Below are positions 38,241 through 55,683 of a DNA stretch of 64,000 bases, piece by piece. The DNA is from Paraburkholderia sp. HP33-1 (GTDB lineage: Bacteria; Pseudomonadota; Gammaproteobacteria; Burkholderiales; Burkholderiaceae). The notes under the pieces are model-generated. The model saw nothing but the letters and a program-made list of their open reading frames with translations. It was not told where the DNA came from and made no database searches. Location of the stretch: assembly GCF_021390595.1 (NCBI RefSeq), contig NZ_JAJEJR010000002.1:372001-436000 (forward strand), written 5' to 3'. The translations under genes were made by a program, and so were the position numbers. Position 1 is the first letter of the stretch; each line of letters starts with the position of its first letter.

Positions 38241-38251
38241 CGTTTGCTCCG

Positions 38252-39271: not shown

Positions 39272-39301
39272 GAGTTGCTGTCTCCTTGAGTGATTCGTGC
39301 G

Positions 39302-40312
39302 TCATTTCGCGACGGGAATGATGGTGGCGGGCAATGTCACGCCACGACCTTGCTGTTGTGCGCGCGCCAGCAGCATTTCAGCGATGACGACGTCTTGCAG
39401 TGCGGAGCCGACCGACTTGTAGAGGACGATGTCATCGTCCGCGCGGCGGGCCGCGATGCTGCCCGCTGCGAGCGCGGTGAGTGCCACGAGCTTGTCGGCG
39501 AGCGCGACGCCGGCCCGCGTCGCGGCGATCGCGTCGCCCGTGTCGTGCGCCACTTCATCGGGCATGTCGGCGACGATGCTGACGGCGCGCGCCATCGTTG
39601 CTTCGTCTACTTCGCGCTGTTCCGGCAACGTCGAGCCGAGCGAGACCACGGTGGCGCCGGCCGGCAACCATGCGCCTTGCAACACTGGCGATTCGTCACG
39701 GCTGCGTGCGGCGCAGATCACTACGTCGGCATCCTGAACAGTGGCTTCGGGGCTGTCGGCCGCGAAGATGTCCAGCGTCTCGCGGAAGCCTTCGGCGAAG
39801 CGTTCGCGGCTCGCGGGCGTCGGGCTGAAGACGCGTGCGCTTTGCACCTCGCGCACGGCGCGCAGGCAATCGAGCGCGTTGCGCGCCTCGAAGCCCGAGC
39901 CGATAACCGCGACGCGCAGCGGGCGCTGCGGCGCGAGGAGCGTGACGGCGAGCGCCGCCGTGGCTGCGGTGCGCAGCCCGGTCACGCGGTTGCCGTCGAT
40001 CAGCGCCCGCAGTTCCGTGGAGCCTTGATCGAACAGCGAGATCAGGTAGCTGGCGCGGCGCGCGCGCGTGTTGGCGGCAATCAGCTTGCAGCCCAGATGG
40101 CCGCCGTTGGGTGATACCGCGCTCAGGCTGCGTAACCAGATGCCGTCGCCGCGTGCCATCGCGCGCGGCGGCACCATTGCGTTGGAGACGGGGCGTGCAT
40201 AAGCATCGGCGAGTGCGGCGACGGCCGAAGGCCAATCGGCGAGTGACGCGACATCGGCGTCGCTGAGAAAGAGGGTATGCGAAGGCGGTGGTGTGTGCGA
40301 ATTGTCAGGCAT
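39302..40312 (-). CDS. Ornithine cyclodeaminase/mu-crystallin family oxidoreductase
   Basis: 336 residues. The NAD(P)-binding motif VIGSGFEARNALDCLRAVREV and the substrate loop LISLFDQGSTELRALIDGNRVTGLRTAATAALA define the family. Members cyclise ornithine, reduce ketimines or dehydrogenate amino acids; the Burkholderia members outside proline pathways are mostly of unknown function. ATG 40312 (MPDNSH) is the natural start; a 98-codon extension upstream overlaps the divergently read regulator region and is not real. It lies upstream of the DapA-fold and ALDH genes on the same strand. Confidence 0.88.
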   Translation of the reverse strand: MPDNSHTPPPSHTLFLSDADVASLADWPSAVAALADAYARPVSNAMVPPRAMARGDGIWLRSLSAVSPNGGHLGCKLIAANTRARRASYLISLFDQGSTELRALIDGNRVTGLRTAATAALAVTLLAPQRPLRVAVIGSGFEARNALDCLRAVREVQSARVFSPTPASRERFAEGFRETLDIFAADSPEATVQDADVVICAARSRDESPVLQGAWLPAGATVVSLGSTLPEQREVDEATMARAVSIVADMPDEVAHDTGDAIAATRAGVALADKLVALTALAAGSIAARRADDDIVLYKSVGSALQDVVIAEMLLARAQQQGRGVTLPATIIPVAK

Positions 40313-40415
40313 GGTGCTGGCGTTGGAGTGAACGACCAGCGAACTATAGAAAGCATGGCCTGTTTCGGGCACTGCCCGGCATCGAAAGCAGTTATGACGT
40401 AAATCGATGGCTCGG

Positions 40416-41345
40416 CTAGCCGGCTTCCAGCGATTCGGCGAGACGGCAGACCAGCCGGCGCACCTCGCGGGTGGCGCGCGTATGCGGGCGGCGAGGGGAT
40501 TCCGCGAGCACGACGAAGCGCTCGAGTACAGGCTGGACGATGCGCGAGGATGCAAGCCGCTCGTCCAGCTTTCCCGGCATGACCGAGGCGATGGCGTAGC
40601 CGCCACCGGCGGCCACGACTTCGTATTGCAGTCTGACCGAGTCCACCTCGGCGGCTATATGCAAATCCAGCCCGTATTGAGAGGCCAGCCGGTCGAGCCG
40701 CGCGCGCAGGAGGTGAGGCCGGCCCGGGATGACGAGCGGCAGTTCAGATAACTGCGCGAGGTCAACATGCGCGGATTTGACGACGGGGTCCCCGAGCCGG
40801 CCGACGAGATGCAATGGAACCCTCGCCAGCACGTGGTTGTCGCCTACGCTCGCTTCGTCTTCGCGCAGCACGATTGCCATATCGAGGCGCCCTTCGCGCA
40901 GATGCTCTTCGAGTTGCGCGCTGGCTGCCTCAGCCAGATGTAGCCGCACGCCTGGAAACTGGGCGCGCACGGCGCCGTAGAGCGCGCCTGCGAACTGACC
41001 GACGGCAGAAGGCAGCAGTCCGAACAGAACTTCGCCAGCGGGCTGCCCGCGGGCACTGCGAATGTCGTCGGCAAGCGCATCCGCTTCGGCGGCAAGGCGT
41101 GCGACGCGTGGCAGCATGCGTTCACCGAACTCGGTGAGGACGACGCCGCGGCCGGTGCGACGAAACAGGCGCTCGCCGCACTGCTGTTCGAGTTGCGCGA
41201 CATTCCGGCTGACCATGGACTGCGGCATGTCGAGCGCGGCCGCCGCCTTGCTCAGACTGCCGGAGGCCGACACCTGAATGAAAATAAGCCAGCGTGGGTC
41301 GACGATGGTCGGGGTCGCCGTGAAGTTGTCCCTCTCATGCGACAT
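40416..41345 (-). CDS. LysR-family regulator
   Basis: 309 residues. The HTH reads FIQVSASGSLSKAAAALDMPQSMVSRNVAQLEQQCGERLFRRTG. The effector domain (LHLAEAASAQLEEHLREGRLDMAIVL) resembles LysR proteins of nitrogenous-compound catabolism. It lies 23 bases from the next LysR gene on the same strand and upstream of the OCD/DapA/ALDH group. It may control that group, the divergent 42.6-51.8 kb operon or both. Confidence 0.9.
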   Translation of the reverse strand: MSHERDNFTATPTIVDPRWLIFIQVSASGSLSKAAAALDMPQSMVSRNVAQLEQQCGERLFRRTGRGVVLTEFGERMLPRVARLAAEADALADDIRSARGQPAGEVLFGLLPSAVGQFAGALYGAVRAQFPGVRLHLAEAASAQLEEHLREGRLDMAIVLREDEASVGDNHVLARVPLHLVGRLGDPVVKSAHVDLAQLSELPLVIPGRPHLLRARLDRLASQYGLDLHIAAEVDSVRLQYEVVAAGGGYAIASVMPGKLDERLASSRIVQPVLERFVVLAESPRRPHTRATREVRRLVCRLAESLEAG

Positions 41346-41368
41346 GACAGTCCTCTTCCCGCAGCGGC

Positions 41369-42298
41369 TTACAGGCGCTCGTCATCGTGAGCGTGGTCCA
41401 TCACGACGACGGCTTCCTTGATCAGCCCGCGCAACCAGATGAGGCCCGGGTCCGATGTGCGATGTTTGTGCCATTGCATCGACTGTTCCATCGCAGGCAT
41501 CGGGACGGGCGCGTCGCGCAGCACGACTGGCAGGCTGCGCGCCGCCTCCTGTGCGAGCCGCCGGTGCATCGTGGCAATCCGGTTCGTGCCGGGCAACAAC
41601 TGCGCCGGCGACAGGAAGCTGTAGGTCGTCACTTCCACCTTGCGCTCGATGCCGAGCTTGTGCATGAACCCGTCTTCCAGCGCCGAGTGGACTGCGCCGG
41701 GCTGGACGATGATGTGGCCCGCCGCCAGATACCGCTCGGCCGTCATCTCGCCTTTCGCGAGCGGGCTTTGGTCCCACAGCACGCAGCAAAACGTTTCCGT
41801 GAGCAGCAGCTCCGCGGGATGGTCGACCGAACAATACTCCTTGGGGATGATCAGCAGATCGGCTTCGCCGCGCTCCAGCACGCGGTGGGGGTGCATGATC
41901 TGCGCGCGCAGCTCCAGACGAATGCCGGGCGCGCGCTGGTAGGCGAGCGCAAGCACATGCGGCATCAACGTCGTCATCGTGTAGTCGGACAAGTGCAGAC
42001 GGAAGACGCGGTCCGAATGCGCGGGCACGAAATCGGGCTGCGCGGAGACCGTTGAATCGACTCGCACCAGAATGTCGCGTACGGGGTCCTGGAGCGCCTG
42101 CGCGCGTGGCGTCAGCTCCATCTTGCGGCCCACCTGGACTAGCAGCTCGTCGCCGAAATAGTCGCGCAAGCGCGCGAGAGCGCTGCTCATCGCCGACTGG
42201 CTCAGATAAATTTTTTCGGCTGCGCGACTGATGTTCTGTTCAGTCAGCAGCGCGTCGAGTGCGACGAGCAGATTGAGGTCGAGCTTGTTAAACCGCAT
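41369..42298 (-). CDS. LysR-family regulator (NodD/NahR-like group)
   Basis: 309 residues. The opening MRFNKLDLNLLVALDALLTEQNISRAAEKIYLSQSAMSSALARLRDYFGDELLVQVGRKMELTPRA (quoted in parts: HTH then wing) is the form found in NodD, NahR and LinR, which sense aromatic inducers or flavonoids. It is directly divergent from the ten-gene operon starting at 42625, so it is the best candidate activator for that operon. ATG 42298 is chosen because family proteins begin M-R-F-N-K-L-D; the 20-codon extension upstream lacks support. Confidence 0.92.
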   Translation of the reverse strand: MRFNKLDLNLLVALDALLTEQNISRAAEKIYLSQSAMSSALARLRDYFGDELLVQVGRKMELTPRAQALQDPVRDILVRVDSTVSAQPDFVPAHSDRVFRLHLSDYTMTTLMPHVLALAYQRAPGIRLELRAQIMHPHRVLERGEADLLIIPKEYCSVDHPAELLLTETFCCVLWDQSPLAKGEMTAERYLAAGHIIVQPGAVHSALEDGFMHKLGIERKVEVTTYSFLSPAQLLPGTNRIATMHRRLAQEAARSLPVVLRDAPVPMPAMEQSMQWHKHRTSDPGLIWLRGLIKEAVVVMDHAHDDERL

Positions 42299-42624
42299 GC
42301 GTACTGTCTCCCTTCTCCTTTTCCTTGCGACCTGGCGCGCGTTGCATTGTCGCTGCATGGCTTCTTCTTGTGCGCAATTTCAGGGTTTCTCCTGAAAGTA
42401 TCGATGTCGCGGATATCTCCCATCTATCGAATTCATTTATGGGGATACCTGAGCCTATCTTAATCTACGACGCATCCCGAAGTGACGGCAGCAAGACGAA
42501 CGTTCCGGGAAAAACCGCATGCCGGTGGGTTCAGTAGGCAACGTCGCTGTTGCATCCCCGAACCTTGCCGCGCTTGCCATGACGATGAGACACAAGGTGG
42601 TGTGCCCGCCCTGGTTGAGGAGAC
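42299..42624. other. Control region between the NodD-like regulator and the catabolic operon
   Basis: 326 bases without a gene. It is AT-richer near 42360-42480 (for example ATCTCCCATCTATCG followed by TTTATGGGGATACC). It should hold the divergent promoters. No clear T-N11-A element was pinned down by eye. Confidence 0.4.
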
Positions 42625-43542
42625 ATGATGCAGAAGAGACTGACCGCAGCCGCTGTCGGCTGCGCCGTGCTGGCCGCAGGATTGGTGAACGACGCAAATG
42701 CGTTTGAAGGAGGTGTTTCCCCTTATCCGGCCGGCGCCGTTGGCACGAACATCGCCAACCTGCCGCCGATACCCGGCCTGTTCGCACTGGAGCAGTTCAA
42801 TTACAGCTTCGCCAATGGCCTTTACGGTAACGACGGCAAGAAGCTGCCAATTCCGTTCCACCTGGATGCGTATTCGGCAACGACGCGCTTACTGTTGGCG
42901 TATCCGTTTCAGCTTCTGGGCGCGAAAGTCTACACGCAGCTTGTCATTCCAGTCGTGTCCCTGCACACCAGTGTCTTCGGCGAGTCGAGCACGCAGAACG
43001 GTCTTTCCAACATCACGCTCACGCCCGTGCTGCTGCAATGGCAGCTCTCGCAGAATCTGGCGATCGCGTCGGGCATCGACGTCGCATTCGAGACGGGCTC
43101 CTATAGTCCAGTCAAATCGAGCGTGGCGGTAGGCTACACCTCGGTGCAGCCGGTGATCTCGATTCGCTACAACGTGCCCAACGGCATCGATGTCGCGCTG
43201 GCAAACCGTTTCCTGCTTAACCAGAAGAATGGCACGACGAACTACAGATCGGGCGACGGCTACGTTGCCGAGTTCACCGCCGGCTGGAATTTCGGCCCTT
43301 GGAAGCTCGGCGTGGTTGGCGCATACCTGAATCAGTTCAGCGACGACAAAGCGGATGGTGTGAACGTGGGCAATCGCATGAGGACCTTTGGTATCGGTCC
43401 TTCAGTCGTCTACGACGCCAGAAGCTGGAACGTCAACCTCAATTATCAGCAAGGCGTCTATGCGGCGAACACCTCCAAAAGCAACAGCGTGTGGCTAAAC
43501 ATCGCCATTCCGCTGTGGCCTGGTTTCGGGCGCAAGGGCTGA
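42625..43542 (+). CDS. Outer-membrane SphA/phenol-degradation MetA-family protein
   Basis: 305 residues. A signal peptide (AAAVGCAVLAAGLVNDANAFEGG) is followed by a beta-barrel pattern with alternating hydrophobic strands and a C-terminal strand ending near IPLWPGFGRKG. Features such as GVSPYPAGAVGTNIANLPPIPG and LALANRF-like repeats match the family often encoded at the head of aromatic-degradation operons, where it is thought to admit hydrophobic substrates. Two ATG codons (42625 and 42628) follow GAGGAGAC. It is the first gene of the 42.6-51.8 kb operon. Confidence 0.85.
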   Translation: MMQKRLTAAAVGCAVLAAGLVNDANAFEGGVSPYPAGAVGTNIANLPPIPGLFALEQFNYSFANGLYGNDGKKLPIPFHLDAYSATTRLLLAYPFQLLGAKVYTQLVIPVVSLHTSVFGESSTQNGLSNITLTPVLLQWQLSQNLAIASGIDVAFETGSYSPVKSSVAVGYTSVQPVISIRYNVPNGIDVALANRFLLNQKNGTTNYRSGDGYVAEFTAGWNFGPWKLGVVGAYLNQFSDDKADGVNVGNRMRTFGIGPSVVYDARSWNVNLNYQQGVYAANTSKSNSVWLNIAIPLWPGFGRKG

Positions 43543-43607
43543 GCACTGTCGTTCGATGCGTCGCGCCATCCATCGAGCAATACGTTAATTCCATCAAGGT
43601 AATCGGC

Positions 43608-44768
43608 ATGTTTCGTTATTTTCCAACCAACTACGTTTGGGATCTGTCGGTCAATCTCGCGATTGAAATGGGCGCGCGCATCGGCGAAATCGAGGAGATG
43701 TGCGGCCCGTTGCAGGAGGCGGCCAGGCAACCGGACGCCGAGGGCACGCGCGCGTTTCGCGAGGCGTGGGTCAGGAAGGCCGATCTTCTGTGCGAGCTAG
43801 CGGTGGAGGACGAAGCGAGAGGGCGGATGCTCTCGGCCGGTGAAAAATACCGGCGCGCGGCCATCTATCTGATCACGGCCGAACGCATGCTGGCGCACGA
43901 TGAGCCGGGGCGCATCGAGCTTTACCTGCGTTCGCTCGACACATTCGACCAGGGCGTCGCGCTGCGCGGCGACAACTGCGAACGCGTGCGCATTCCGTAC
44001 GGCGACGCGCACCTTTCCGGGCTGCTCGTGAAGGCGCCGAATGCCGGAGTCCGCAGCCCGCTACTCGTGCAGGTCAACGGGCTCGATTCGACCAAGGAGA
44101 TGAAGTACTTCGTGGGCCTGCCGGCATGGCTCGGCGCACGCGGCGTCTCCTCGCTGATCGTCGATCAGCCCGGCACCGGCGAGGCGCTTCGTCTGCACGG
44201 CATGCATGCGATCTACAACTCCGAGGCGTGGGCGAGCGAGATCGTCGACTGGCTGGAGACGCGCGACGATGTCGATCCGCTGCGAATCGGCATGGAGGGC
44301 GTGTCGCTGGGCGGCTACTACTGCCCGCGTGCGGTCGCCTTCGAGCCGCGCTTCGCTTGCGGGGTAGTTTGGGGCGCGAACCATGACTGGCGCGACGTGC
44401 AGAAAAAGCGCCTGCAACGCGAGGGCAATTTTCCGGTGCCGCATTACTGGAAGCATGTTTGCTGGGTCTGGGGTGCGAAAGACATCGACGACTTCATGCG
44501 CATCGCCGAAAACGTGCACCTCGACGGCGTGCTCGATCGCGTCAAGGTGCCGTTTCTCGTCACGCATGGCGCAAAGGATTCGCAGATTCCCGTCGCCTGG
44601 GCGCATCGCACGTATGAACAACTCGTGAACAGCCCGAAGCGCGAACTCAAGATTTTTACCGATCGCGAAGGCGGGGTTCAGCACTCGAGCTTCGATAACT
44701 CGATCAACGCAGGGCACTGGATTGCCGACTGGATTGCCGAAACACTCGGCGGCCACACCTCGCTCTGA
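43608..44768 (+). CDS. Alpha/beta hydrolase, 2,6-dihydroxypseudooxynicotine-hydrolase-like C-C hydrolase
   Basis: 386 residues. A helical N-terminal domain of about 120 residues is followed by a hydrolase fold with nucleophile S233 (EGVSLGGYY), acid D324 (HGAKDSQIP) and H359 (GGVQHSSF). This two-part layout, with MEGVSLGGYYCPR, is that of the family including 2,6-dihydroxypseudooxynicotine hydrolase and some acyl-ester or acyl-amide hydrolases, which split a C-C bond beside a carbonyl on a hydroxylated ring. Here it probably removes or splits a side chain of the operon's substrate. ATG 43608 has CAAGG upstream; the frame continuing to 43299 overlaps the outer-membrane gene in another frame. 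Confidence 0.88.
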   Translation: MFRYFPTNYVWDLSVNLAIEMGARIGEIEEMCGPLQEAARQPDAEGTRAFREAWVRKADLLCELAVEDEARGRMLSAGEKYRRAAIYLITAERMLAHDEPGRIELYLRSLDTFDQGVALRGDNCERVRIPYGDAHLSGLLVKAPNAGVRSPLLVQVNGLDSTKEMKYFVGLPAWLGARGVSSLIVDQPGTGEALRLHGMHAIYNSEAWASEIVDWLETRDDVDPLRIGMEGVSLGGYYCPRAVAFEPRFACGVVWGANHDWRDVQKKRLQREGNFPVPHYWKHVCWVWGAKDIDDFMRIAENVHLDGVLDRVKVPFLVTHGAKDSQIPVAWAHRTYEQLVNSPKRELKIFTDREGGVQHSSFDNSINAGHWIADWIAETLGGHTSL

Positions 44769-44800
44769 CACATCCACACTTTCAAACGAACCCACCTCTC

Positions 44801-45754
44801 ATGAACATCATCGGACCCGATACGCTGGTCTTCGGCGTGGACGACGTCGCCAGCTGCAAACAGTATTTGCTCGACTACGGCCTGCTGCCCGCGCACGCGA
44901 ACGAGGCCGGCGGGCGCTTCGAGGCGCTCGACGGGACGGGCATCGAAATCGCTCACCGCGACGCGCCGTCCTTGCCGCCCGCACTCGGCACGGCGAGCAT
45001 GCTGCGCAAGACGGTCTATGGCGTGGCCGACGCGGCGACGCTCGACGCCATCGCACATGAACTGCAGCGCGATCGTGAGGTGCGCAAGCTTGCCGACGGC
45101 TCGATCGAATCAGCCGACGACATGGGTTTTGCCATCGGCTTTCAGGTCACGAAACGCCGCACGCTGGTCTTGCCGGCAGAACCGCTGAACGCGCCGGGCG
45201 CGCCCGCGCAACGCGCGCCGAACGTGGTCGGCGCGGACGAACACGTCACGCTCACGCCACGCACGCTCTCGCATGTCGTCTATTTCGTGCCCGATGCGGT
45301 GAAGGCGGAAGCGTTCTACGTCGATCGTCTCGGCTTTCGCTGCACCGACCGCTTCACGGGCGTGGGCCCGTTCCTGCGGCCGGCGGGCACGCTCGAACAT
45401 CACACGCTGTTCATGATCGAAACGCCGCCGTTCATGAAGGGTTGCGAGCATTTCACGTTTCATATGGGCGGGCCGAGCGAGGTCCTGCAGGCTGGCAGCC
45501 GCTTCGTCGCGAAGGGCTATCAGTCGTTCTGGGGACCGGGCCGTCACCGCTTCGGGTCGAACTGGTTCTGGTACTTCAACAGCCCGCTTGGCTGCCATGT
45601 GGAGTACGACGCCGACATGGACCTGCACGACGATGCATGGACGTCACGCGTTGCACCAATGAGCGCGGATACCTCGCAACTGTTTCTCTTCCAGGCGCGG
45701 GAAAAGTGGGCCCCGGGCGGGCCGCCGCCCGCAGCGAAGGCCGAAACGAACTAA
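44801..45754 (+). CDS. VOC-family two-domain extradiol-type dioxygenase
   Basis: 317 residues with two glyoxalase/extradiol repeats. The C-terminal repeat carries the expected metal ligands: H158 (LSHVVYF), a His at 217-221 (EHFTFHMGG) and E268 (CHVEYDAD). This is the 2-His-1-carboxylate site of type I extradiol dioxygenases, which open catechols next to the hydroxyl groups. The N-terminal repeat has lost equivalent residues, also as in true extradiol enzymes. Its stop overlaps the ATG of the Rieske gene (TAATG). Ring cleavage of the FAD-monooxygenase product is the likely role. Confidence 0.85.
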   Translation: MNIIGPDTLVFGVDDVASCKQYLLDYGLLPAHANEAGGRFEALDGTGIEIAHRDAPSLPPALGTASMLRKTVYGVADAATLDAIAHELQRDREVRKLADGSIESADDMGFAIGFQVTKRRTLVLPAEPLNAPGAPAQRAPNVVGADEHVTLTPRTLSHVVYFVPDAVKAEAFYVDRLGFRCTDRFTGVGPFLRPAGTLEHHTLFMIETPPFMKGCEHFTFHMGGPSEVLQAGSRFVAKGYQSFWGPGRHRFGSNWFWYFNSPLGCHVEYDADMDLHDDAWTSRVAPMSADTSQLFLFQAREKWAPGGPPPAAKAETN

Positions 45755-46113
45755 TGGCGCGCTTCACGCCCGTTCGCCTCGCGCGCATCGATGAACTGCC
45801 GGATCCTGGCGCGCGCGGCTTCGATCCCGAAGGCGCCGGGCATGACACGGTATTCGTCGTTCGCCGCGGCGAGGCAGTTTTTGCATACCGCGACGCGTGC
45901 CCCCATTACGGCGATACCGCGATGGCCTGGCGCAAGGACGCCTACCTGAATGGCGATGGAACCCGCATCGTGTGTCATGCGCACGGCGCGCAGTTCGACA
46001 TCGAGACAGGAATGTGCCTGATCGGCCCGTGTGAAGGAAAGCGGTTAGTTAGCCTGAATATCGACGTGACGGAAGACGGCGACATCATGCTGACCCGCCC
46101 ACTAAAAGACTAG
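45754..46113 (+). CDS. Rieske [2Fe-2S] ferredoxin
   Basis: 119 residues. C49-x-H51 (CPHYGD) and C74-x2-H77 (CHAHG) form the Rieske cluster site, with a glycine-containing loop before each. It is a small electron carrier of the type that feeds oxygenases. The start ATG shares its A with the last base of the preceding TAA. No Rieske oxygenase alpha subunit is present in the window, so it may support the FAD monooxygenase or the dioxygenase (for example by re-reducing Fe). The gap to the next gene is 11 bases. Confidence 0.92.
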   Translation: MARFTPVRLARIDELPDPGARGFDPEGAGHDTVFVVRRGEAVFAYRDACPHYGDTAMAWRKDAYLNGDGTRIVCHAHGAQFDIETGMCLIGPCEGKRLVSLNIDVTEDGDIMLTRPLKD

Positions 46114-46124
46114 GAGACACCCGG

Positions 46125-47255
46125 ATGACCACTCAACTTCAAAACGTCCTCGTCATTGGCGGAGGTTTCTCCGGCATGGCGACGGCAATTCAATGCGCGA
46201 AGCTCGGCCTGCAGGTCGACCTGGTGGAGATCGACGAGGGCTGGCGCTCGTATGGCGCGGGCATCAGCATCGGCGGCCCGACGTTGCGTGCGTTGCGCAC
46301 GATCGGTGTGCTCGACGCATTCTTCGAGCGCGGCTATGGCGGCGACGGCGTGAACCTGCTCACCGCCGGTGGCCAGCCGCTTCGCACGCTGCCAACACCG
46401 CGCGTCGCCGGGGCCGATGTGCCCGGCGGCGGCGCCATCATGCGTCCCGTGCTCGCCGATATTCTCGCGAAAGCGACGCGAGCGGCAGGCGTGCGGGTTC
46501 GCCTTGGCAGCACGTTCTCGCGGATGGAGCAGCACGACGACGGGGTGCGCGTGTCGTTGACGGACGGCACGCAGCGCAGCTACGACCTCGTGGTCGGGGC
46601 CGACGGCCTGTATTCGAAGGTGCGCGAAGTGGTGTTCCCCGACGCGCCAAAGCCGCGTTACACCGGGCAAGGCGTGTGGCGCGCAGTCTTGCCCCGGCCT
46701 GCGGACATCGTCTGCGCGACGATGTGGATGGGGCAGAAGGTGAAGGTTGGCGTCAATCCGGTTTCGCAGGAGGAGATGTACCTCTTCGTCACGGAGAACC
46801 GCCCGACGAACGAGCACATCGATCCCGACCACTGGCCGCGCATGCTCGCCGATCTGCTGGCGCCGTTTGACGCTCCGTTGATCCAGTCGCTGCGCGCGCA
46901 GATCGGCCTTCAATCGCGCGTCAACTATCGTCCGCTCGAACGCATGCTGATGGCGCAGCCCTGGTACAGCGGACGCGTGGTGCTGGTCGGCGACGCCGTG
47001 CACGCCACCACGCCGCATATGGCGGCGGGCGCGGGCATTGGTCTCGAGGATGCGATCGTGCTTGCCGAAGAACTGGCGCGGGCATCGACCGTGGATACTG
47101 CCTTGCGGGCGTTCGGGGAGCGGCGCTGGGAACGCTGCCGCATGGTGGTCGAGAATTCGGGGCGTCTTGGCGAGATCGAAATTGCCGGCGGCGACAAGGC
47201 GGAACACGCCCGCATCATGCACGAGACGCATATGAGTCTCGCGCAGCCGATCTGA
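46125..47255 (+). CDS. FAD-dependent aromatic monooxygenase
   Basis: 376 residues, group A flavin hydroxylase. The dinucleotide motif VLVIGGGFSGMATAIQCAKLGLQV, the DG motif (VVGADGLYSKVREVVF) and GD motif (VVLVGDAVHATTPHMAAGAGIGLEDAIVLAEEL) are all intact. Enzymes of this kind, such as salicylate or 6-hydroxynicotinate/2,6-dihydroxypyridine hydroxylases, hydroxylate phenol-like rings using NAD(P)H and O2. The operon context suggests it makes the catechol-like ring opened by the VOC dioxygenase. GGAGA precedes the start. Confidence 0.93.
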   Translation: MTTQLQNVLVIGGGFSGMATAIQCAKLGLQVDLVEIDEGWRSYGAGISIGGPTLRALRTIGVLDAFFERGYGGDGVNLLTAGGQPLRTLPTPRVAGADVPGGGAIMRPVLADILAKATRAAGVRVRLGSTFSRMEQHDDGVRVSLTDGTQRSYDLVVGADGLYSKVREVVFPDAPKPRYTGQGVWRAVLPRPADIVCATMWMGQKVKVGVNPVSQEEMYLFVTENRPTNEHIDPDHWPRMLADLLAPFDAPLIQSLRAQIGLQSRVNYRPLERMLMAQPWYSGRVVLVGDAVHATTPHMAAGAGIGLEDAIVLAEELARASTVDTALRAFGERRWERCRMVVENSGRLGEIEIAGGDKAEHARIMHETHMSLAQPI

Positions 47256-47270
47256 CCAGGCGGAGGCACG

Positions 47271-48464
47271 ATGCAAACGAACCTCTCCACCTCGACGCCG
47301 ACGGACCAGCACACCGCGGACGGCGCGTCGGCACGCCTCGGCGTGACGGGCACGCTCGCTCTGATGGTTGCGCATTGCGCGGGCATGGTCGATCTGGTCG
47401 CGTTGCCGGTATGGGTTGGCACCTTGATTGGCGCCTACCATCTCGACCCGCAACAGGCGGGACTGCTTGCCACGCTGTTTCTCGCCGGTGCCGTGGCGAG
47501 CAGCCTGTTCTTTTCCCCGCGCCTGAACCGCTCGCGTGCAAGGGCGGCGGCGACCATCGGCTTTGGTGTCGCGGCGCTCGCGTTTGCCGGCATGATATCG
47601 ACAGACCGCTTTGCGGTGATGGCGCTCCTGCATGCCGTCGCGGGCATCGCGGTGGGCTGCGGGCTCAGTTTCACGCACGGCACGATCGGACGCAGCGCGA
47701 ATCCACATCGGCTGTTTGCGATCGCGGGCCTCGCGCTTGGCGTGTTTGCCATTGCATTTCTCGGGCTCACGCCGGGGATGATCGCGTTGCACGGCGGGCC
47801 CACGTTGTTTCGCGTTTTCGCCGGTGTCATGGCAGTGGCGGCCATCGCGTGCGTGCTCGCGTTTCCGTCGCTCCGTGCGGGCCGGGGCGAAGCGACAGCC
47901 GACGAGCCCCGTATCGACCGCGCGGTGTGGTTCGGCATGGCCGGCGTGAGTTGCATGGCGCTGACTCAGGCCATGCTATTCAGCTTCGTCCAGCGTATCG
48001 GCCTCGATCGTGGCTTCGGCTTGACGGCGGTGACGACCACGCTGATCGCATTGGGCGTCGTGAATCTGTTTCCCGCGCCGGTAGCCGGGCTGCTGGAGTT
48101 GCGCGTGCCGGGCCGCAGGGTCGTGCAGGCGGGGCCCGTGGTGCAGGCGGCGCTCGCACTGATCATCACGCAAAGCGCGGCGTTCGCGCCGTATGCGGCG
48201 GCCACCTCGGTTTTTGCGGCCGTCATGATCTTCACGCACACCTTCGCGTTCGGCATGCTGGCCCGCATCGACAGCACTGGCCGGGCTGTCGCGGCGACAC
48301 CCGCCATGCTGATGACGGGCGCGGCAATCGGCCCGGTTCTGGGCGGCACGCTGGTCAAGCAATCCGGTTACGGCAGCCTCGGCATGGCAGCAATACTGGT
48401 CGCCGCCGCTGCAGTGTATTGCTTCTCGCGTCTCGAGCGCCGTCCAAATTCCGCAGGAGTCTGA
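47271..48464 (+). CDS. MFS transporter, probable uptake carrier for the operon's substrate
   Basis: 397 residues with 12 hydrophobic spans. It is a compact MFS protein with short loops, e.g. SRARAAATIGFGVAAL after the third span, and a central basic loop SLRAGRGEATADEPRID. It has GGAGG upstream and sits in the operon, so it likely imports the pathway substrate. No family-level specificity is visible. Confidence 0.85.
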   Translation: MQTNLSTSTPTDQHTADGASARLGVTGTLALMVAHCAGMVDLVALPVWVGTLIGAYHLDPQQAGLLATLFLAGAVASSLFFSPRLNRSRARAAATIGFGVAALAFAGMISTDRFAVMALLHAVAGIAVGCGLSFTHGTIGRSANPHRLFAIAGLALGVFAIAFLGLTPGMIALHGGPTLFRVFAGVMAVAAIACVLAFPSLRAGRGEATADEPRIDRAVWFGMAGVSCMALTQAMLFSFVQRIGLDRGFGLTAVTTTLIALGVVNLFPAPVAGLLELRVPGRRVVQAGPVVQAALALIITQSAAFAPYAAATSVFAAVMIFTHTFAFGMLARIDSTGRAVAATPAMLMTGAAIGPVLGGTLVKQSGYGSLGMAAILVAAAAVYCFSRLERRPNSAGV

Positions 48465-48466
48465 GC

Positions 48467-49276
48467 ATGAAGCCAGTACGCCGATTTATCGATCTATCCA
48501 TCTATCTGGAGAACGAAGTACTCTCCGATCCGCCGCCGCTTGCGCCGAAGATCACCTACCAGAAGCACGCCGATACGCTGCCGGAATTCATGGCGATGCT
48601 GCCGGGCACGAAACCCGAGGACTATCCCGATGGCGAGGCCGCCGCTGCGGAATGGGTCACGCTGACCACGCATAGCGGCACGCATCTCGACGCGCCGTGG
48701 CATTTCCATTCGACCATGGATGCGGACCTCGGCGAAGCGAGACCTTCGATTACGATCGATCAGGTGCCGCTGGAATGGTGCTTTCAACCGGGCGTGAAGC
48801 TGGATTTCCGACATTTTACTGATGGTTATGTCGTGACAGCCGCGGACGTCGAAGCTGAACTCGCGCGCATCGGCCATGTGCTGCAACCGCTCGATATCGT
48901 CGTCGTCAACACGCGTGCGGGGTCGCGATACGGCCATGCCGACTATGTCAATTCCGGGTGCGGCATGGGCTATGAGGCCACCATGTACCTGCTGGAGCGT
49001 GGCGTGCGCTTGACGGGTACCGACGCGTGGAGCTGGGATGCTCCGTTCTCCTACACAGCGAAGAAGATTTCGGAAACTGGCGATACGTCGCTGATCTGGG
49101 AAGGTCACAAGGCGGGGAGGGATATCGGCTATTGCCACCTGGAGAAGCTGCACAACCTCGAAGTGCTGCCGGCGACCGGCTTCGTGATCAGCTGCTTCCC
49201 TCACAAGATTCGCGGCGCTTCTGCCGGCTGGACGCGCGCCGTAGCGATCTTTGAAGCCACGGAGGCCATGCCGTGA
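48467..49276 (+). CDS. Cyclase/kynurenine-formamidase-like metal hydrolase
   Basis: 269 residues of the cyclase family. The metal-binding motif HSGTHLDAPWHF (HxGTHxDxPxH) is complete. Members hydrolyse amides or lactones, such as N-formylkynurenine or isatin, or open cyclic imides. ATG 48467 overlaps the previous operon gene's downstream spacer by two bases only, and its stop overlaps the GTG of the cupin gene (GTGA), so the last four genes are translationally coupled. It probably hydrolyses a ring-cleavage intermediate. Confidence 0.9.
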   Translation: MKPVRRFIDLSIYLENEVLSDPPPLAPKITYQKHADTLPEFMAMLPGTKPEDYPDGEAAAAEWVTLTTHSGTHLDAPWHFHSTMDADLGEARPSITIDQVPLEWCFQPGVKLDFRHFTDGYVVTAADVEAELARIGHVLQPLDIVVVNTRAGSRYGHADYVNSGCGMGYEATMYLLERGVRLTGTDAWSWDAPFSYTAKKISETGDTSLIWEGHKAGRDIGYCHLEKLHNLEVLPATGFVISCFPHKIRGASAGWTRAVAIFEATEAMP

Positions 49277-49869
49277 GCTTTCGTGCAATTCGCCGCGTGG
49301 TGACCGGCCACGACGCCAACGGCCAGGCGGTTGTCGTGTCGGATGGCGCACTGCCGAACGTGGCGCAGATCGCCGCGATTCCCGGCACCGTATTCCACGA
49401 AGTGTGGTCGACCTCGGCAACACCTGCGCGGTTGGACAACGGCGCGGACCCGACCGTCGGCGCGCTGATGCTGCCGCCGCCGAAGCAGGGTACGCGGATG
49501 CGATTCGTCGATATTCCGCCCGATACGGCCGAGTTTCTTGCGCATGGTGCGGCTAGAATGCACGACGCGTTCAGCCAGATTGGCGACGCTGAAGCGTCAA
49601 CGGTAAGCACGGACTCGCCGCATCCGCTGATGCACCGCACGGAGTCGATCGACTACGGCGTGGTGATCGAAGGCGAAATGACGCTGGTTCTCGACGCTGC
49701 CGAGGTCGCGCTCGCGCCCGGCAGTGTGGTGATCCAGCGCGGGACGAACCATGCCTGGGCGAACCGGTCCGGCCGTCCGTGCCGGATGTTGTTCGTGCTC
49801 GTCGACGGCGCCTACGCCCCGGAAATCGCGGCGGCGCTCGAAGCATCCACACAACGAGGACCACGATGA
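49273..49869 (+). CDS. Cupin-domain protein
   Basis: 198 residues. The cupin barrel occupies the C-terminal half: HRTESIDYGVVIEGEMTLVLD (motif 1) and PGSVVIQRGTNHAWANRSGRPCRML (motif 2). The usual His residues of motif 1 are reduced to one His and a Glu/Tyr set, so metal binding is uncertain. It starts at GTG 49273, overlapping the preceding TGA, and its stop overlaps the ATG of the FAH gene. Function in the pathway is unknown; an isomerase or decarboxylase-like role is possible. Confidence 0.88.
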   Translation: MSFRAIRRVVTGHDANGQAVVVSDGALPNVAQIAAIPGTVFHEVWSTSATPARLDNGADPTVGALMLPPPKQGTRMRFVDIPPDTAEFLAHGAARMHDAFSQIGDAEASTVSTDSPHPLMHRTESIDYGVVIEGEMTLVLDAAEVALAPGSVVIQRGTNHAWANRSGRPCRMLFVLVDGAYAPEIAAALEASTQRGPR

Positions 49870-50873
49870 AATTCGCAACCCTGCCCGATGGCGGCAAGGA
49901 TGGCCGCTTGCTACTGGTGTCGCGCGACCTGCGCCATGCCGTGGAGGCCGCGCCGATAGCGGGAACGCTGCTCGACGCACTGGAACGCTGGGCCGACGTG
50001 GCGCCAGCCTTGCAGGCGCGTTATGACGATCTGAACGGCGCGCGCGTGCCCGAAGCGCGCCCTTTCGACCCGGCCGCGTGCGCTGCGCCGCTGCCGCGCA
50101 GCCCGCAGTGGTGCGATGGCTCCGCCTTTCTCAACCACGGCCGGCTGATGGAGCAGGCGTTCAACACGCCACCGATCCCCGAGTTCGATACCGTGCCGGT
50201 GATGTACCAGGGCGCCAGCGACGATTTCCTCGGGCCGTCATGCGATGTGCCGTTGCCTGATGAGGCCGCTGGCATCGATTTCGAGGGCGAATTCGGCGTC
50301 GTCGTGGATCGCGTGACGATGGACACTTCGGCTTCGGATGCGATGCAGCGTATCCGCCTCCTCGTGCAGATCAACGACTGGAGTCTGCGGGCATTCGGGC
50401 CGCGCGAAATGAAAACGGGCTTCGGGTTTCTGCAGGCCAAGCCCTCTACGTCGTTCGCGCCCGTCGCCATCACGCCTGATGAACTCGGCGACGGCTGGCG
50501 CGACGGCCGCGTGCATCTGAGCCTGCATGTCGAGTGGAATGGCAACTGGTTTGGTCAACCACATGGCCGCGAGATGAACTTCAGCTTTGGCGAACTCATT
50601 GCCCACGCCGCGCGTACGCGCAGTCTCGCCGCGGGCTCGATCGTCGGGTCCGGCACGGTGTCGAACGTGGATCGCCGTGCGGGCTCGGCGTGCATCGCCG
50701 AGCGGCGCGTGATCGAGATGATCGACGAGGGCGCGGCGCGCACGGGCTTCATGCGCTTCGGCGAGCGGGTGAGGATGGTGGCTCGCGACGAGGCGGGTAA
50801 CGCACCGTTCGGGGCGATCGATCAGCGGGTGGTGCGTGCGCCGCGCAGTGAGGAACGAGGAGAGAAGACTTGA
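49866..50873 (+). CDS. Fumarylacetoacetate-hydrolase-family enzyme
   Basis: 335 residues. The metal ligands are visible in FEGEFGVVVD (two Glu) and NDWSLR (Asp), with the downstream SFAPVAITPDELG and the C-terminal SGTVSNVD loop. FAH-family enzymes hydrolyse C-C bonds of 1,3-diketones or decarboxylate/isomerise 2-oxo-dienoates after aromatic ring opening, using Mg2+. The ATG overlaps the cupin stop (ATGA). An unusual N-terminal domain of about 100 residues precedes the catalytic fold, as in FAH itself. Confidence 0.93.
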   Translation: MKFATLPDGGKDGRLLLVSRDLRHAVEAAPIAGTLLDALERWADVAPALQARYDDLNGARVPEARPFDPAACAAPLPRSPQWCDGSAFLNHGRLMEQAFNTPPIPEFDTVPVMYQGASDDFLGPSCDVPLPDEAAGIDFEGEFGVVVDRVTMDTSASDAMQRIRLLVQINDWSLRAFGPREMKTGFGFLQAKPSTSFAPVAITPDELGDGWRDGRVHLSLHVEWNGNWFGQPHGREMNFSFGELIAHAARTRSLAAGSIVGSGTVSNVDRRAGSACIAERRVIEMIDEGAARTGFMRFGERVRMVARDEAGNAPFGAIDQRVVRAPRSEERGEKT

Positions 50874-51829
50874 GAGTGCTGGTGACGGGGGCGGGCGGAT
50901 TCGTTGGGACCGCGCTTGTCGAACGGCTGCTGCGCGAGGGCATCGCAGCAGCGGGCGATGTGTCGGAGCTGGTACTGGTCGATCAGTCTCCTGGCCTGAC
51001 GCGTGACGATGCCCGTGTTACGTCGCTTGCCGGCGATTTTAGCGATTCGCAGACGCTTGAAAGACTGCTTCTGAAGCCCGTCGATGTCGTCTTTCATCTC
51101 GCGAGCATGCCTGGCGCTCAGGCGGAACGTAACCCCGACGAAGGCGACCGCGTGAACCTATGGGGTACGTTGAGGCTGTTCGACCGGCTCGCAATGCAGG
51201 CAGAGGAGTACGGTCGTGTGGCGCGCGTTGTCTTTGCCAGCAGCGTGGCCGTCTATGGTGAATCGTTGCCGGCGTTCATTGACGAGCACACCGCGCCCTG
51301 TCCGACGATCAGCTATGGCGTACACAAGCTGACCGGCGAACTGGTCCTCGCTGATTGGACGCGGCGCGGCAAGTTGGACGGCCGTTCGCTGCGCCTGCCT
51401 GGAATCGTAGCGCGCAAGGAGCGCTCCGTCGGACACGGCTCGGCTTTCATGAGTGAGATCTTCCGGACTGCGCAGGCACATGAGGCGTATAAGTGTCCGG
51501 TGTCGCCAACGGCAACGGCGTGGTGGATGTCGCGAGCCTGTTGCGTGGAAAACCTGCTGCATGCGGCGCGGCTGCCGTCGGACGGCTTGCATGCTGGACG
51601 TTTCTGGACACCTCCGGTTTTGCATTTGCGCGTGAATCAGATCGTCGACGCACTTGCAAAGCGATTCGGCAGGATTGGGATCGACTTCGCCCCTGTGGAA
51701 TGGATCGAACGGCTTTTCGGGCGACAACCGCCGCTTGTCGATCATCGTGCGATCAAGGACGGATTTCTGAACGACGGGACTATTGAGAACCTTGTGGAGT
51801 GCGCTATCGAGGCGCTATCAAACGGTTGA
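50870..51829 (+). CDS. NAD-dependent epimerase/dehydratase (erythronate-dehydrogenase-like)
   Basis: 319 residues. The extended-SDR cofactor motif GAGGFVG is at 7-13, the catalytic site is SSVAVYGE with YGVHK (about 144-148), and the LAGDFSD strand suits NAD. It resembles the DenD branch that oxidises D-erythronate, but the substrate in this operon is not known. The start is TTG 50870, overlapping the TGA of the FAH gene, preceded by GAGGAGAGAA. It is the last operon gene; a terminator was not clearly seen. Confidence 0.88.
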   Translation: MRVLVTGAGGFVGTALVERLLREGIAAAGDVSELVLVDQSPGLTRDDARVTSLAGDFSDSQTLERLLLKPVDVVFHLASMPGAQAERNPDEGDRVNLWGTLRLFDRLAMQAEEYGRVARVVFASSVAVYGESLPAFIDEHTAPCPTISYGVHKLTGELVLADWTRRGKLDGRSLRLPGIVARKERSVGHGSAFMSEIFRTAQAHEAYKCPVSPTATAWWMSRACCVENLLHAARLPSDGLHAGRFWTPPVLHLRVNQIVDALAKRFGRIGIDFAPVEWIERLFGRQPPLVDHRAIKDGFLNDGTIENLVECAIEALSNG

Positions 51830-52137
51830 TAGCAACAATGCTTCTCAAAACGTTGCAGGACAAAGAGTTAGGCAGAAGCCGAAATGCGAGATCAGCACCC
51901 GTGCGACCGGCTGAATCCGCCGGCGGATACCTGCTCCTGCAACTGCGGCTCTTCCATCGACCGCGACGGGTCAACCCGAGACGAAAGGTAATGGGACGCT
52001 GTGATAGCGATTCGCCGCCTGTTTCCGGCAACGCCGTACCGCTTTTCGCTCAATGGCGTTTTGAACAACATCGAGGTTGAAGTCAAGGGTGACTAGTGCG
52101 CGGCCACAAACGGCATGGCCATGATCGAGCCAGTGAT
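51830..52137. other. Intergenic region between convergent genes
   Basis: 308 bases separating the end of the catabolic operon from the convergent regulator. No gene or T-tailed hairpin recognised. Confidence 0.4.
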
Positions 52138-54888
52138 TCATCGGGCGACTCCGCTTTGAACTACCGGAAATGCCATTGCAGTGACTTGCTCGAAGCTTAA
52201 CCGCGCACCTTCGCTGGCAAGTCGATCGCATTCTTCTCGCGTGAATGCCGAGTCGACAATGGCTCGCGCTTCCTTGTAGCTGGATACCGCCATCGGCGGT
52301 ATCCAATCGCGGACTGCCTGTAGCTGGCGGTTGTCAATCCAGGCAAGTGTCCTCGCGGCGTCGACGAGACGGCCCTGCCGCGCAAGTAGAAGCGCCACAT
52401 GGCAGTAGGGACAGGCCATCGGATCGCGTGCGTGCATCGACAGCGTGCAAGCACTCCGCAATGCAAGTTCAGCCGCCTTGAAGTCGTCGAGATAGACGAG
52501 CGCCGCGCCGCGCAAACTGAGGATATGCGACCGCAGTTGGACACTCTCTGTCACACTCGATCTGTTGAGAATATCGTTACATCGCCGCAATGCAGAAGCA
52601 AAGTCGCCTTCCAGCAAGTCGCAGGCGGGAAGCATAATTTCACAGCGGTTTCCGTAGAAACTGTGATCAAGACGAAGGCCCTGCAACGCCGCATTGGCCA
52701 GTCGTCTCGCTTCATCCGGCTTGCGGTCGATGAAATAGGCGAAAACCACTCTGCAATACGCGACGGACGTTTGCAGCCATGATGGCCACGCATCGTCCAA
52801 CAGGGCTTCCGCTCCGGTCAGCGCTGCTATCGCCGCGTCGCGATCGGCCAGGAAGGCAAACTGATGCGCAGCGACCGTCAAGGACCTGAAGGCTCCGAAT
52901 CGGTCGTTCAGGCCTTGAAATAGTCGAGCCGCTCTGAGGGCCGAAGCGGCCTCGCGTTTTAGCTCCGTGCGCATGCGCAGATCAGCGACGGCAAACCAGA
53001 AGCGCGCTGCCAGTCGAGGCGGCGTTGACTCGTCCACCCAGGGCTCGATCGTACGGTACAGCCGCGCGCCTTCGTCGTTGAAGCCTCGCGCATCCCATAG
53101 CCTGTCGGTGGCCGCAGCAAGTTCGACCGCGATCTGGTGATCGCCCGTCGGCCCCAGTGCCCACGCCACGGCCGCGCGTACATTGTCGAGGTCAGGCGCG
53201 ATGCGACGCATCCGCGCCAGGGGCTCCTCAAAGAGATCGTCTCCGGTCAGGATCTGCGCCAGTGCTTCGGCGTGGCGCCGGCGCGTCGCGTCGAGCGAGC
53301 CAGTGATGGCTAGCCGCTCCAATGCGAAGGCCCGGCTGCTTTCGAGGAGCCGGTAGCGCGGCACCTCCCCACGTTCAACCATCACGAGCGATTTATCCAC
53401 GAGTGAGGCGAGGTGATCGATGACTGCCCAGCTATCGGTGGTCTGGTCGCTCGCCACGCACTGTGCGGCTTCAAGCGAGAAGGTGCCCATGAACACGCCG
53501 AGCCGATCGAACACCGTTTGCTCGGGCGCACTCAACAGCCCATAGCTCCACTGCAGCGCTCCCCGCAAGGTTTGATGGCGAGCCGGTGCGGTTCGATTGC
53601 CGCCCGCGAGCAGCCTCAGGCTCTCGTCGAGCCGACGCAGCAGACCATGCACTCCGAGGAGCGGTTCCCGCGCCGCGGCGAACTCGATCGCCAGAGGAAT
53701 TCCATCGAGCCGCCGGCAGATCTCGACCACATCGCTCACGTTCCCGCTATCGACCGTGAACTTCGGATCGGCGGCCTGGATCCGCGCGACGAACAGTTGG
53801 ACAGCGCCGAAACCGGGGGCAGCGGTCGCGTCTGCGTTCGCGGGCACGGCCAGCGCGTCGAGACGAAAGATCTGCTCCTGATCGATGTGCAACGGTTCCT
53901 GGCTTGTGACCAGCACCCGCACGCCCGGTGCGTCGGCCACGATCTGCGTGACCAGATGCGCTGCCTGTTGGAGCAGATGTTCGCAGTTGTCCAGCAACAG
54001 CAGAAGACTCTGATCCCGGATCAACTGCACCAGCGACGTGAGTCCGCCTTCACTGAGCGCTATCTGGTGCCCCAACACGCGCGCCACGGTCGGCACGAGC
54101 AACAGGCCGTCCGCCAGCGACGCCAGTTCGACAATCCAGACGCCGTCCGCATAGTCATTACGCAGCTCGTACGCCACTGCCTGCGCTAACCGTGTCTTTC
54201 CGATGCCCGCGGGGCCTACGACGCTGACGACCCGGGAAACCTCCAGCAAACGCGCCAGCGCGGCGACGTCTTCCGCACGCCCATAGAGCGGAGGCATCTG
54301 GACCGGCAGATTATTGGTCGCCCTGGTCGATCTTGCGAGGGAAGTGAGCTCTTCTCCGGCCTCTCCGGTGTTCGAAGCCGCGCGTCTTTTCCCGGCCACA
54401 TCGACAAAATCACAAGGAGCCTGCTCAGGCGTCCCTTCGTGAACCGATTCCGGCACGCAGTCCTCTTCATCGAACGCCTGCGATTGGGAGGGTGCTGTCA
54501 GATCCAAACTTTCGCCGGAAATTGACCCGATCGGCCGGACGTCAAAAATATAGCCTCGGCGCGGCACCGTCCGGATCAACTTTTGACTCCGATCGTCCAA
54601 CGCCGCGCGCAACTCGCTGATGCACTGAACCAGGGAATCGTCGGTGACGATAACGTCGCGCCACACGGCCTCGATCAGCTCGTTTCTGCCCAGCAGGCGA
54701 CCGGGATGGCGCGCCAGATGCTGCAATAGCGCAAAGGTCTTCGGTCTGAGCGCGACAGGCCGTCCCGCGACTCTCAGTTCGCCGCGCGCTTTATCGATGT
54801 CAAATCTCGGGTAATGCAGCACAGCCACGACGTCGCCGCTGGCGGAATCCGGCGTCGTGATGGATTTCGGGGATCTTTCGGCGTTCAT
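52138..54888 (-). CDS. Winged-helix transcriptional regulator with NB-ARC-like ATPase and TPR domain (copy 1)
   Basis: 916 residues. An OmpR/PhoB-type winged helix is at about 15-120: RPVALRPKTFALLQHLARHPGRLLGRNELIEAVW, then SLVQCISELRAALDD and IRTVPRRGYIF. An AAA/NB-ARC-like ATPase follows with Walker A GPAGIGKTRLAQAVAY and Walker B-like LLLLLDNCEHLL, and a long helical repeat region with TPR character to the end. There is no receiver domain and no membrane span, so it is probably a STAND-type switch that binds ATP and an unknown ligand. ATG 54888 (MNAERSPKS) is preferred over a TTG at 55059. Residues from about 360 to the C-terminus are duplicated at the right end of the window. Confidence 0.88.
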   Translation of the reverse strand: MNAERSPKSITTPDSASGDVVAVLHYPRFDIDKARGELRVAGRPVALRPKTFALLQHLARHPGRLLGRNELIEAVWRDVIVTDDSLVQCISELRAALDDRSQKLIRTVPRRGYIFDVRPIGSISGESLDLTAPSQSQAFDEEDCVPESVHEGTPEQAPCDFVDVAGKRRAASNTGEAGEELTSLARSTRATNNLPVQMPPLYGRAEDVAALARLLEVSRVVSVVGPAGIGKTRLAQAVAYELRNDYADGVWIVELASLADGLLLVPTVARVLGHQIALSEGGLTSLVQLIRDQSLLLLLDNCEHLLQQAAHLVTQIVADAPGVRVLVTSQEPLHIDQEQIFRLDALAVPANADATAAPGFGAVQLFVARIQAADPKFTVDSGNVSDVVEICRRLDGIPLAIEFAAAREPLLGVHGLLRRLDESLRLLAGGNRTAPARHQTLRGALQWSYGLLSAPEQTVFDRLGVFMGTFSLEAAQCVASDQTTDSWAVIDHLASLVDKSLVMVERGEVPRYRLLESSRAFALERLAITGSLDATRRRHAEALAQILTGDDLFEEPLARMRRIAPDLDNVRAAVAWALGPTGDHQIAVELAAATDRLWDARGFNDEGARLYRTIEPWVDESTPPRLAARFWFAVADLRMRTELKREAASALRAARLFQGLNDRFGAFRSLTVAAHQFAFLADRDAAIAALTGAEALLDDAWPSWLQTSVAYCRVVFAYFIDRKPDEARRLANAALQGLRLDHSFYGNRCEIMLPACDLLEGDFASALRRCNDILNRSSVTESVQLRSHILSLRGAALVYLDDFKAAELALRSACTLSMHARDPMACPYCHVALLLARQGRLVDAARTLAWIDNRQLQAVRDWIPPMAVSSYKEARAIVDSAFTREECDRLASEGARLSFEQVTAMAFPVVQSGVAR
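52164..53804. repeat. Direct repeat, left copy (regulator 3' region)
   Basis: About 1.64 kb that aligns without gaps (offset exactly 10196) to 62360-64000. By eye the first 117 bases differ at about nine positions; later blocks such as 53010-53400 are nearly identical. The right copy runs off the window, so the full length is not known. Confidence 0.9.
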
Positions 54889-55683
54889 TCGGCCAATCGT
54901 CGTGTGAGTTGACGCCTCCCTGACTACCCTTTCATTGGTGGAGCATATGATGCCGAGAGTTTCGCCGCCAGTGTTTGATGCCTTTTCGGACGCGTCGCTT
55001 CCGCTCTCGAGCGTTGTGTTCCGATTCCTCGATGATGTGTCGGTCGGCGACCGACTCAAGCGCCCGGTCGATCGTCACTGCAACCTTCGAGCCGAGCAAG
55101 CTTCGACTCCCCGCTCATCGCCGCAAAGCTCGCATTTGACTGGCGTGCCCGTTCCCTTCACAGGCAGCGCGCTGGGTTCCGCCCTGAACCGAACGTCGCG
55201 CAGGACAGGACCAACAACGCCGCGACGATTGCAGTCGGTTCGGCGAAAACGCATTTATTAGTGGAAGACGTGCTTCAGATTCGCAGATGGAGACCACTGC
55301 CCAACCGATGACAGTAACTGGACGACGAAGAATGGCAAAACGCCCCGATCTCGATGCGATGAGCGGATTGGCCGATTTCAACTTGTAAACCGTACTCGTT
55401 GCCAAGTCCCATCGCCTATCATAAGTAGATAGCTTCCGTTGCTTGTCGGTGCTGTTGGCAAGAAACAAAAGGTCGTTGGATTTTTCGCAAGACCGATCTT
55501 GCGGGACTGCTAACCGTTTGTGCGATCTTTAACACTGCGATTAACCGGATCATTTCAGTCCCTGCGCTTTAACTTTTGAGTGACATTCGACCAATACAAG
55601 AGAAAGCGTCACTGAACGGAGGAAGCCACGACGTTGGTCGCTTAATCCGCATAATGACCGGTTGAAGATGAGTCACTGGTGAC
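54889..55683. other. Long intergenic region upstream of the regulator and the liv operon
   Basis: About 795 bases without a credible gene; short frames here have no family features. It becomes AT-richer near 55400-55680, where the promoter of the transporter operon should be. Confidence 0.4.

Follow-up and report, generated by a model that had tools for sequence, protein, structure and literature searches.

A ten-gene operon of Paraburkholderia sp. HP33-1 that very probably belongs to the flavonoid-degrading fde type

The window, i.e., the whole 64,000-nucleotide stretch of Paraburkholderia sp. HP33-1 DNA analyzed here, carries ten collinear plus-strand open reading frames (ORFs) at 42625-51829, several of them overlapping (Table 1). 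All ten, with the domain types assigned by an earlier sequence-only reading, are present, and the domain search agrees with those assignments. The divergent LysR gene R was omitted from that reading; an RBS-like GGGAGAC and the position of the helix-turn-helix made 42298 its best start. The start codons of B, D, G, and I were moved to the positions listed in the table. The coupling of the last four genes by stop/start overlaps was confirmed as GTGA for G/H, ATGA for H/I, and TTGA for I/J (four bases each), while C and D overlap by one base within TAATG. In an NCBIfam scan of R, A-H, and J (R and E judged on the best 25 families), the cut-off was passed by E alone among the proteins scanned, with NF005313, a 'hypothetical protein' family. 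Among 17 proteins encoded from 36771 to 56547, the domain scan found no molybdenum hydroxylase, as had been noted.

Table 1. Genes of the operon, its divergent regulator, and the putative control region (positions in the window).
Feature	Assignment	Position	Strand	Basis
R	fdeR-like LysR regulator	41369..42298	-	Pfam LysR; 309 aa from ATG 42298; divergent from operon
Control region	Putative FdeR operator/promoter block	42382..42467		Conserved motif 42422-42438; R-A spacer alignment
A	Outer-membrane channel, Phenol_MetA_deg family (FdeA)	42625..43542	+	PF13557, E 1.6e-38
B	Alpha/beta C-C hydrolase, 2,6-dihydroxypseudooxynicotine hydrolase-like	43608..44768	+	2jbw, E 5.2e-16; triad S233/D324/H359
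C	VOC-type extradiol dioxygenase (FdeC)	44801..45754	+	PF00903; 3b59 and 1han matches; candidate ligands H158/H217/E268
D	Rieske [2Fe-2S] ferredoxin (FdeD)	45754..46113	+	PF00355, E 7.7e-10; CPH and CHAH present
E	FAD monooxygenase, flavonoid C8-hydroxylase type (FdeE)	46125..47255	+	FAD/GD motifs; tree
F	MFS transporter	47271..48464	+	PF07690
G	Cyclase-family metal hydrolase	48467..49276	+	PF04199, E 4.2e-36; HxGTHxDxxxH present
H	Cupin protein	49273..49869	+	PF07883
I	Fumarylacetoacetate-hydrolase-family enzyme	49866..50873	+	PF01557, PF18288
J	NAD-dependent epimerase/dehydrogenase	50870..51829	+	Nearest NCBIfam model D-erythronate dehydrogenase, 221 bits vs cut-off 325

Two neighboring regions lie on the minus strand. 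Directly 3' of the operon, 52138-55059 encodes a protein of 973 aa; it has an OmpR-type DNA-binding domain, and its ATPase (AAA/NACHT) matches are weak and below the cut-off. On the other side, genes for an aldehyde dehydrogenase and for DHDPS-family and ornithine-cyclodeaminase-family proteins (36771-41345) adjoin a further LysR gene (40416-41345) and probably form a separate pathway.

The catalytic residues of the hydrolase and the dioxygenase are intact. The triad reported earlier for B (386-aa numbering) aligns with the equivalent residues of 2jbw, the 2,6-dihydroxypseudooxynicotine hydrolase. In C, both H158 and E268, which had been pointed out before, and H217, a further candidate metal ligand absent from the sequence-only reading, are invariant in 12 of 12 aligned sequences (11 chosen homologues plus the window protein); H217 aligns with a histidine of 1han which we take to be a metal ligand. 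The CPH and CHAH sequences of D are presumably the Rieske ligand motif, and HxGTHxDxxxH of G is, on our assumption, the cyclase-family motif. E has GxGxxG and GDAxHxxxPxxxxG and lacks the F motif, the same pattern as described for FdeE (UniProt D8J0W9), in which the FAD and GD motifs are present and the F motif is likewise missing (PMC11303751).

With high confidence, the ten-gene set and its divergent LysR gene can be identified as an operon of the fde type, which stands for flavonoid degradation. Such an operon has been described in the plant-associated Herbaspirillum seropedicae SmR1, where it serves to break down naringenin (Marin et al., 2013, 2016). According to the citing papers, its genes form one operon of 10 ORFs (PMC9422121), whereby FdeC is Hsero_1005 and FdeE is Hsero_1007 (PMC10755750), FdeD is the Rieske carrier partnering FdeE (PMC8552027), and fdeA is the first gene, separated by an intergenic region from fdeR, which encodes a LysR-type activator binding naringenin, chrysin, and daidzein (PMC10799723). 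As far as these descriptions extend, the window shares with SmR1 the ten ORFs, the divergent LysR regulator with an intergenic regulatory region between R and A, FdeA as the first gene, and FdeC and FdeE two genes apart with a Rieske partner; FdeD would then be the gene between FdeC and FdeE. The letters B and F-J extrapolate the fde naming. While SmR1 was likened through published descriptions, protein identities were measured against Herbaspirillum sp. Sphag64 instead; H. seropedicae was neither among the best 80 loci of at least 398 relatives nor among the 120 rows listed of 6514. One homologue of E, 69% identical (P0235), is called 'naringenin degradation protein FdeE' in its source.

The conservation of the whole set was followed in a contig scan seeded by the dioxygenase gene C, in which at least 398 relatives were confirmed and the best 80 loci kept; these were scored by identity thresholds and gene order, ignoring adjacency. 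Such a comparison with other genomes had been proposed by the sequence-only reading, and the complete series -R A B C D E F G H I J, with order and orientation kept, was found in 10 of these best 80 loci: Trinickia (2), Paraburkholderia (2), Robbsia, Delftia, an Acidovorax MAG, Ralstonia pickettii, Burkholderiaceae bacterium 26, and Herbaspirillum sp. Sphag64. Other genes are interspersed among the eleven in the Acidovorax MAG and Sphag64. Since the loci were fetched by the dioxygenase gene alone, this eleven-gene conservation is more than chance. The content is nevertheless variable at the thresholds used: the single genes were present in 75 (D), 72 (B), 69 (E), 58 (G), 57 (I), 48 (F), 45 (R), 41 (J), 39 (H), and 16 (A) of the best 80 loci, all lower bounds because contig ends cut some loci. 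The divergent LysR gene stood beside gene A in 16 of the 80.

Sphag64 (L065), the sole Herbaspirillum among the best 80 loci, has a syntenic operon, differing from the window by one additional ORF between I and J. Its proteins are identical to those of the window at 88% (G), 76% (B), 75% (H), 71% (C), 68% (I), 62% (E), 56% (F), 52% (R), 50% (D), and 45% (J), and for A at 29% over 140 residues only. Shorter fde variants with the order B C D E I G or B C D E G I occur in Paraburkholderia, Caballeronia, and Massilia (L036, L049, L074, L043, L045, L048, L076), where A, F, H, and J were not found at the thresholds within the fetched stretch. In a wider search of 59 genomes, an fde-type E at 60% identity or more was present in 7 of 35 same-genus genomes.

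When the R-A spacers of 16 loci were aligned with that of the window by MAFFT, a common block emerged that contains a conserved motif and is weak in Sphag64. In its own genome, the motif pattern has one exact match, which is the window site by construction, and one single-mismatch match on C4. T-N11-A LysR boxes were not enriched (13 against a shuffle mean of 15.8, with 4298 of 5000 shuffles equal or higher), and their clustering was modest, up to 7 in 50 bp, which was equalled in 230 of 5000 shuffles. The numbers of consensus promoter-like sites (0 against a shuffle mean of 2.1) and terminator-like sites (8 against 8.4) were no higher than in shuffled sequence.

Other pathways were considered for the operon. 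One is isoflavone catabolism by an ifc cluster such as that of Variovorax V35, dedicated to daidzein and genistein, which has several enzyme types in common with the window: the cluster published for Variovorax sp. V35 includes a flavin-dependent C8 hydroxylase, a glyoxalase-type dioxygenase, a cupin, and an alpha/beta hydrolase (PMC11069340). Furthermore, C is 69-70% identical to its counterparts in two ifc-like Variovorax loci (L060/L075), and H is 36-39% identical to their cupin. However, E is merely 35-36% identical to the hydroxylase of the same loci, their gene order differs, and the genome of HP33-1 has a distinct ifc-like locus on C3. The published identities are 65.8% for FdeC versus IfcB and 36.3% for FdeE versus the Variovorax hydroxylase IfcA (PMC11069340); the Sphag64 proteins come close to the former (C against Variovorax C, 66-67%), with a poorer fit to the latter (E against Variovorax E, 31-32%). 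In a tree of flavin hydroxylases built from 72 of 114 collected rows (five were dropped as own-genome repeats, the remainder to thin near relatives), the window protein clusters with three Trinickia rows and a genome of its own genus in a supported group of five (98/97), nested in a group of 16 (100/98), whereas the ifc-like rows, from the two Variovorax loci and one own-genome gene, make up their own branch (100/100). Rows were labelled fde at 57% identity or more; three rows at 49-54% also fall on the fde side, and no single branch separates the labelled rows from the rest, since L030 (57%) sits beside rows of T3, one of the further modules of this genome described below. Rows of another such module, T4, group weakly (61/0), and several rows have long branches. 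Membership in the ifc cluster was thus rejected as very improbable from the hydroxylase tree and the low identity of E, with Variovorax L060/L075, not V35, as the comparators.

Even less credible is the pathway originally proposed, in which the operon would be an undescribed system for a nicotine-like or acyl-aromatic/heteroaromatic compound. The suggestion came from the hydrolase B, which shares the family and catalytic triad with the nicotine-pathway enzyme 2jbw. The genes beside B in the window are of other kinds. The ifc hydrolase of Variovorax is reported to be 25% identical to the same enzyme (PMC11069340), and the likeness is thus no pointer to nicotine. The set agrees with the published fde operon wherever the citing papers allow comparison, and its full order recurs in Herbaspirillum sp. 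Sphag64, so that the system is not an undescribed one; with B as the sole resembling part, a nicotine or heteroaromatic pathway was rejected. The more general proposal of aromatic-compound breakdown stands in that hydroxylation, extradiol opening, and C-C hydrolysis fit the enzyme families, although the compound can no longer be called 'unidentified' given the match to fde. A closer variant, still within the fde type, is that the main natural substrate is another flavonoid (a flavone, flavonol, or dihydrochalcone) and not naringenin. FdeE is described as accepting flavanones, flavones, isoflavones, and flavonols, the reported response of FdeR to pinocembrin is at least equal to that to naringenin, and E is just 62% identical to that of the Herbaspirillum sp. 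On the other hand, no particular alternative substrate is favored, and the regulator and gene order are conserved; this variant is rather unlikely. Judged by sequence likeness, naringenin or a similar flavonoid would be the most probable substrate of the fde operon in the window.

For H. seropedicae, the activities of FdeE and FdeC and the induction through FdeR are reported experimentally, and these functions probably hold for the corresponding genes of the window. A flavonoid would enter via A in the outer membrane and the transporter F, and its presence would let FdeR turn the operon on. FdeE with the Rieske protein FdeD would hydroxylate the A-ring at C8 to a 7,8-catechol, which FdeC would open by extradiol cleavage. 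I and B might then release a small acid by C-C hydrolysis, so that a lactone still bearing the B-ring remains; in the published proposal, the acid is oxaloacetate. This lactone may be processed further by G, H, and J, whereby G could hydrolyze a lactone or ester and H could act in a later oxidative cleavage, by analogy with the IfcD cupins, whose reported substrate is a pyranone intermediate (PMC11069340). The roles of A, B, and F-J are thus predictions from sequence. The steps after ring opening are, according to a 2023 paper, without experimental verification (PMC10755750), and a literature search for printed roles of FdeB, FdeG, FdeH, FdeI, and FdeJ found nothing relevant. Side-chain hydrolysis as the initial step, as read earlier from the gene order, is unsupported, because the scheme as published starts with hydroxylation, followed by ring opening. 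In Variovorax, disruption of the ifc hydrolase gene left daidzein degradation unaffected (PMC11069340), which speaks against B being essential early in the pathway, at any rate in the ifc cluster.

Apart from the operon, the 7.35-Mb genome (four contigs) contains three further fde-like modules. The ifc-like module (C3:415183-426957; L129 3183-14957) has a dioxygenase C 65%, hydroxylase E 34%, cupin 36%, Rieske protein 47%, and MFS transporter 43% identical to those of the window, and also includes a beta-keto acid cleavage enzyme. Because it resembles the Variovorax ifc cluster, the genome may degrade isoflavones too. The T3 module (C2:2072006-2082341; L128 7-10342) encodes C at 56%, B at 62%, E at 47%, a Rieske protein at 44%, a fumarylacetoacetate-hydrolase-family enzyme at 57%, and an epimerase at 48% identity to the window, with extra histidinol-dehydrogenase, amino-oxidase-like, and SDR genes. 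A 'stop inside' flag on its dioxygenase did not indicate a broken gene: the match extends beyond the ORF's own end at L128 6808. In Burkholderia sp. Ax-1719 (L031), T3-type genes adjoin an fde operon. The T4 module (C3:665249-672669; L130 9249-16669) has C at 32%, E at 38%, B at 54%, and the cyclase at 67% identity, together with an outer-membrane channel, a LysR gene, and a beta-keto acid cleavage enzyme.

The distribution of these modules was followed in 37 genomes, 23 of the same genus (own included) and 14 of the order. A T3 hydroxylase at 77% identity or more was present in 4 of the 37, a T4 hydroxylase at 80% or more in 2, with one more at 53%, and the ifc-like hydroxylase in the own genome alone, the other matches being 38-40% identical. 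No description of T3 or T4 was met in literature searches aimed at other questions. Two IfcA groups across Proteobacteria and ifc clusters in Burkholderia and Paraburkholderia have been published (PMC11069340), and T4 may therefore belong there. Tentatively, and with more doubt than trust, the genome could be read as holding four diverged A-ring-opening modules of a single family, every one adapted to its own flavonoid-like plant compound, with T3 and T4 as new pathways.

Overall, the close match to a described flavonoid gene cluster makes the operon a good but ordinary example: it is a well-formed representative of an already described pathway. The finding adds a naringenin-type flavonoid operon to another genome and offers a small gene set with which the steps that follow ring opening can be tested. 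The operon itself is of low interest, in comparison with the moderate interest of a genome with four such modules: four related modules in one genome would, if true, be a natural experiment on how a pathway splits by substrate.
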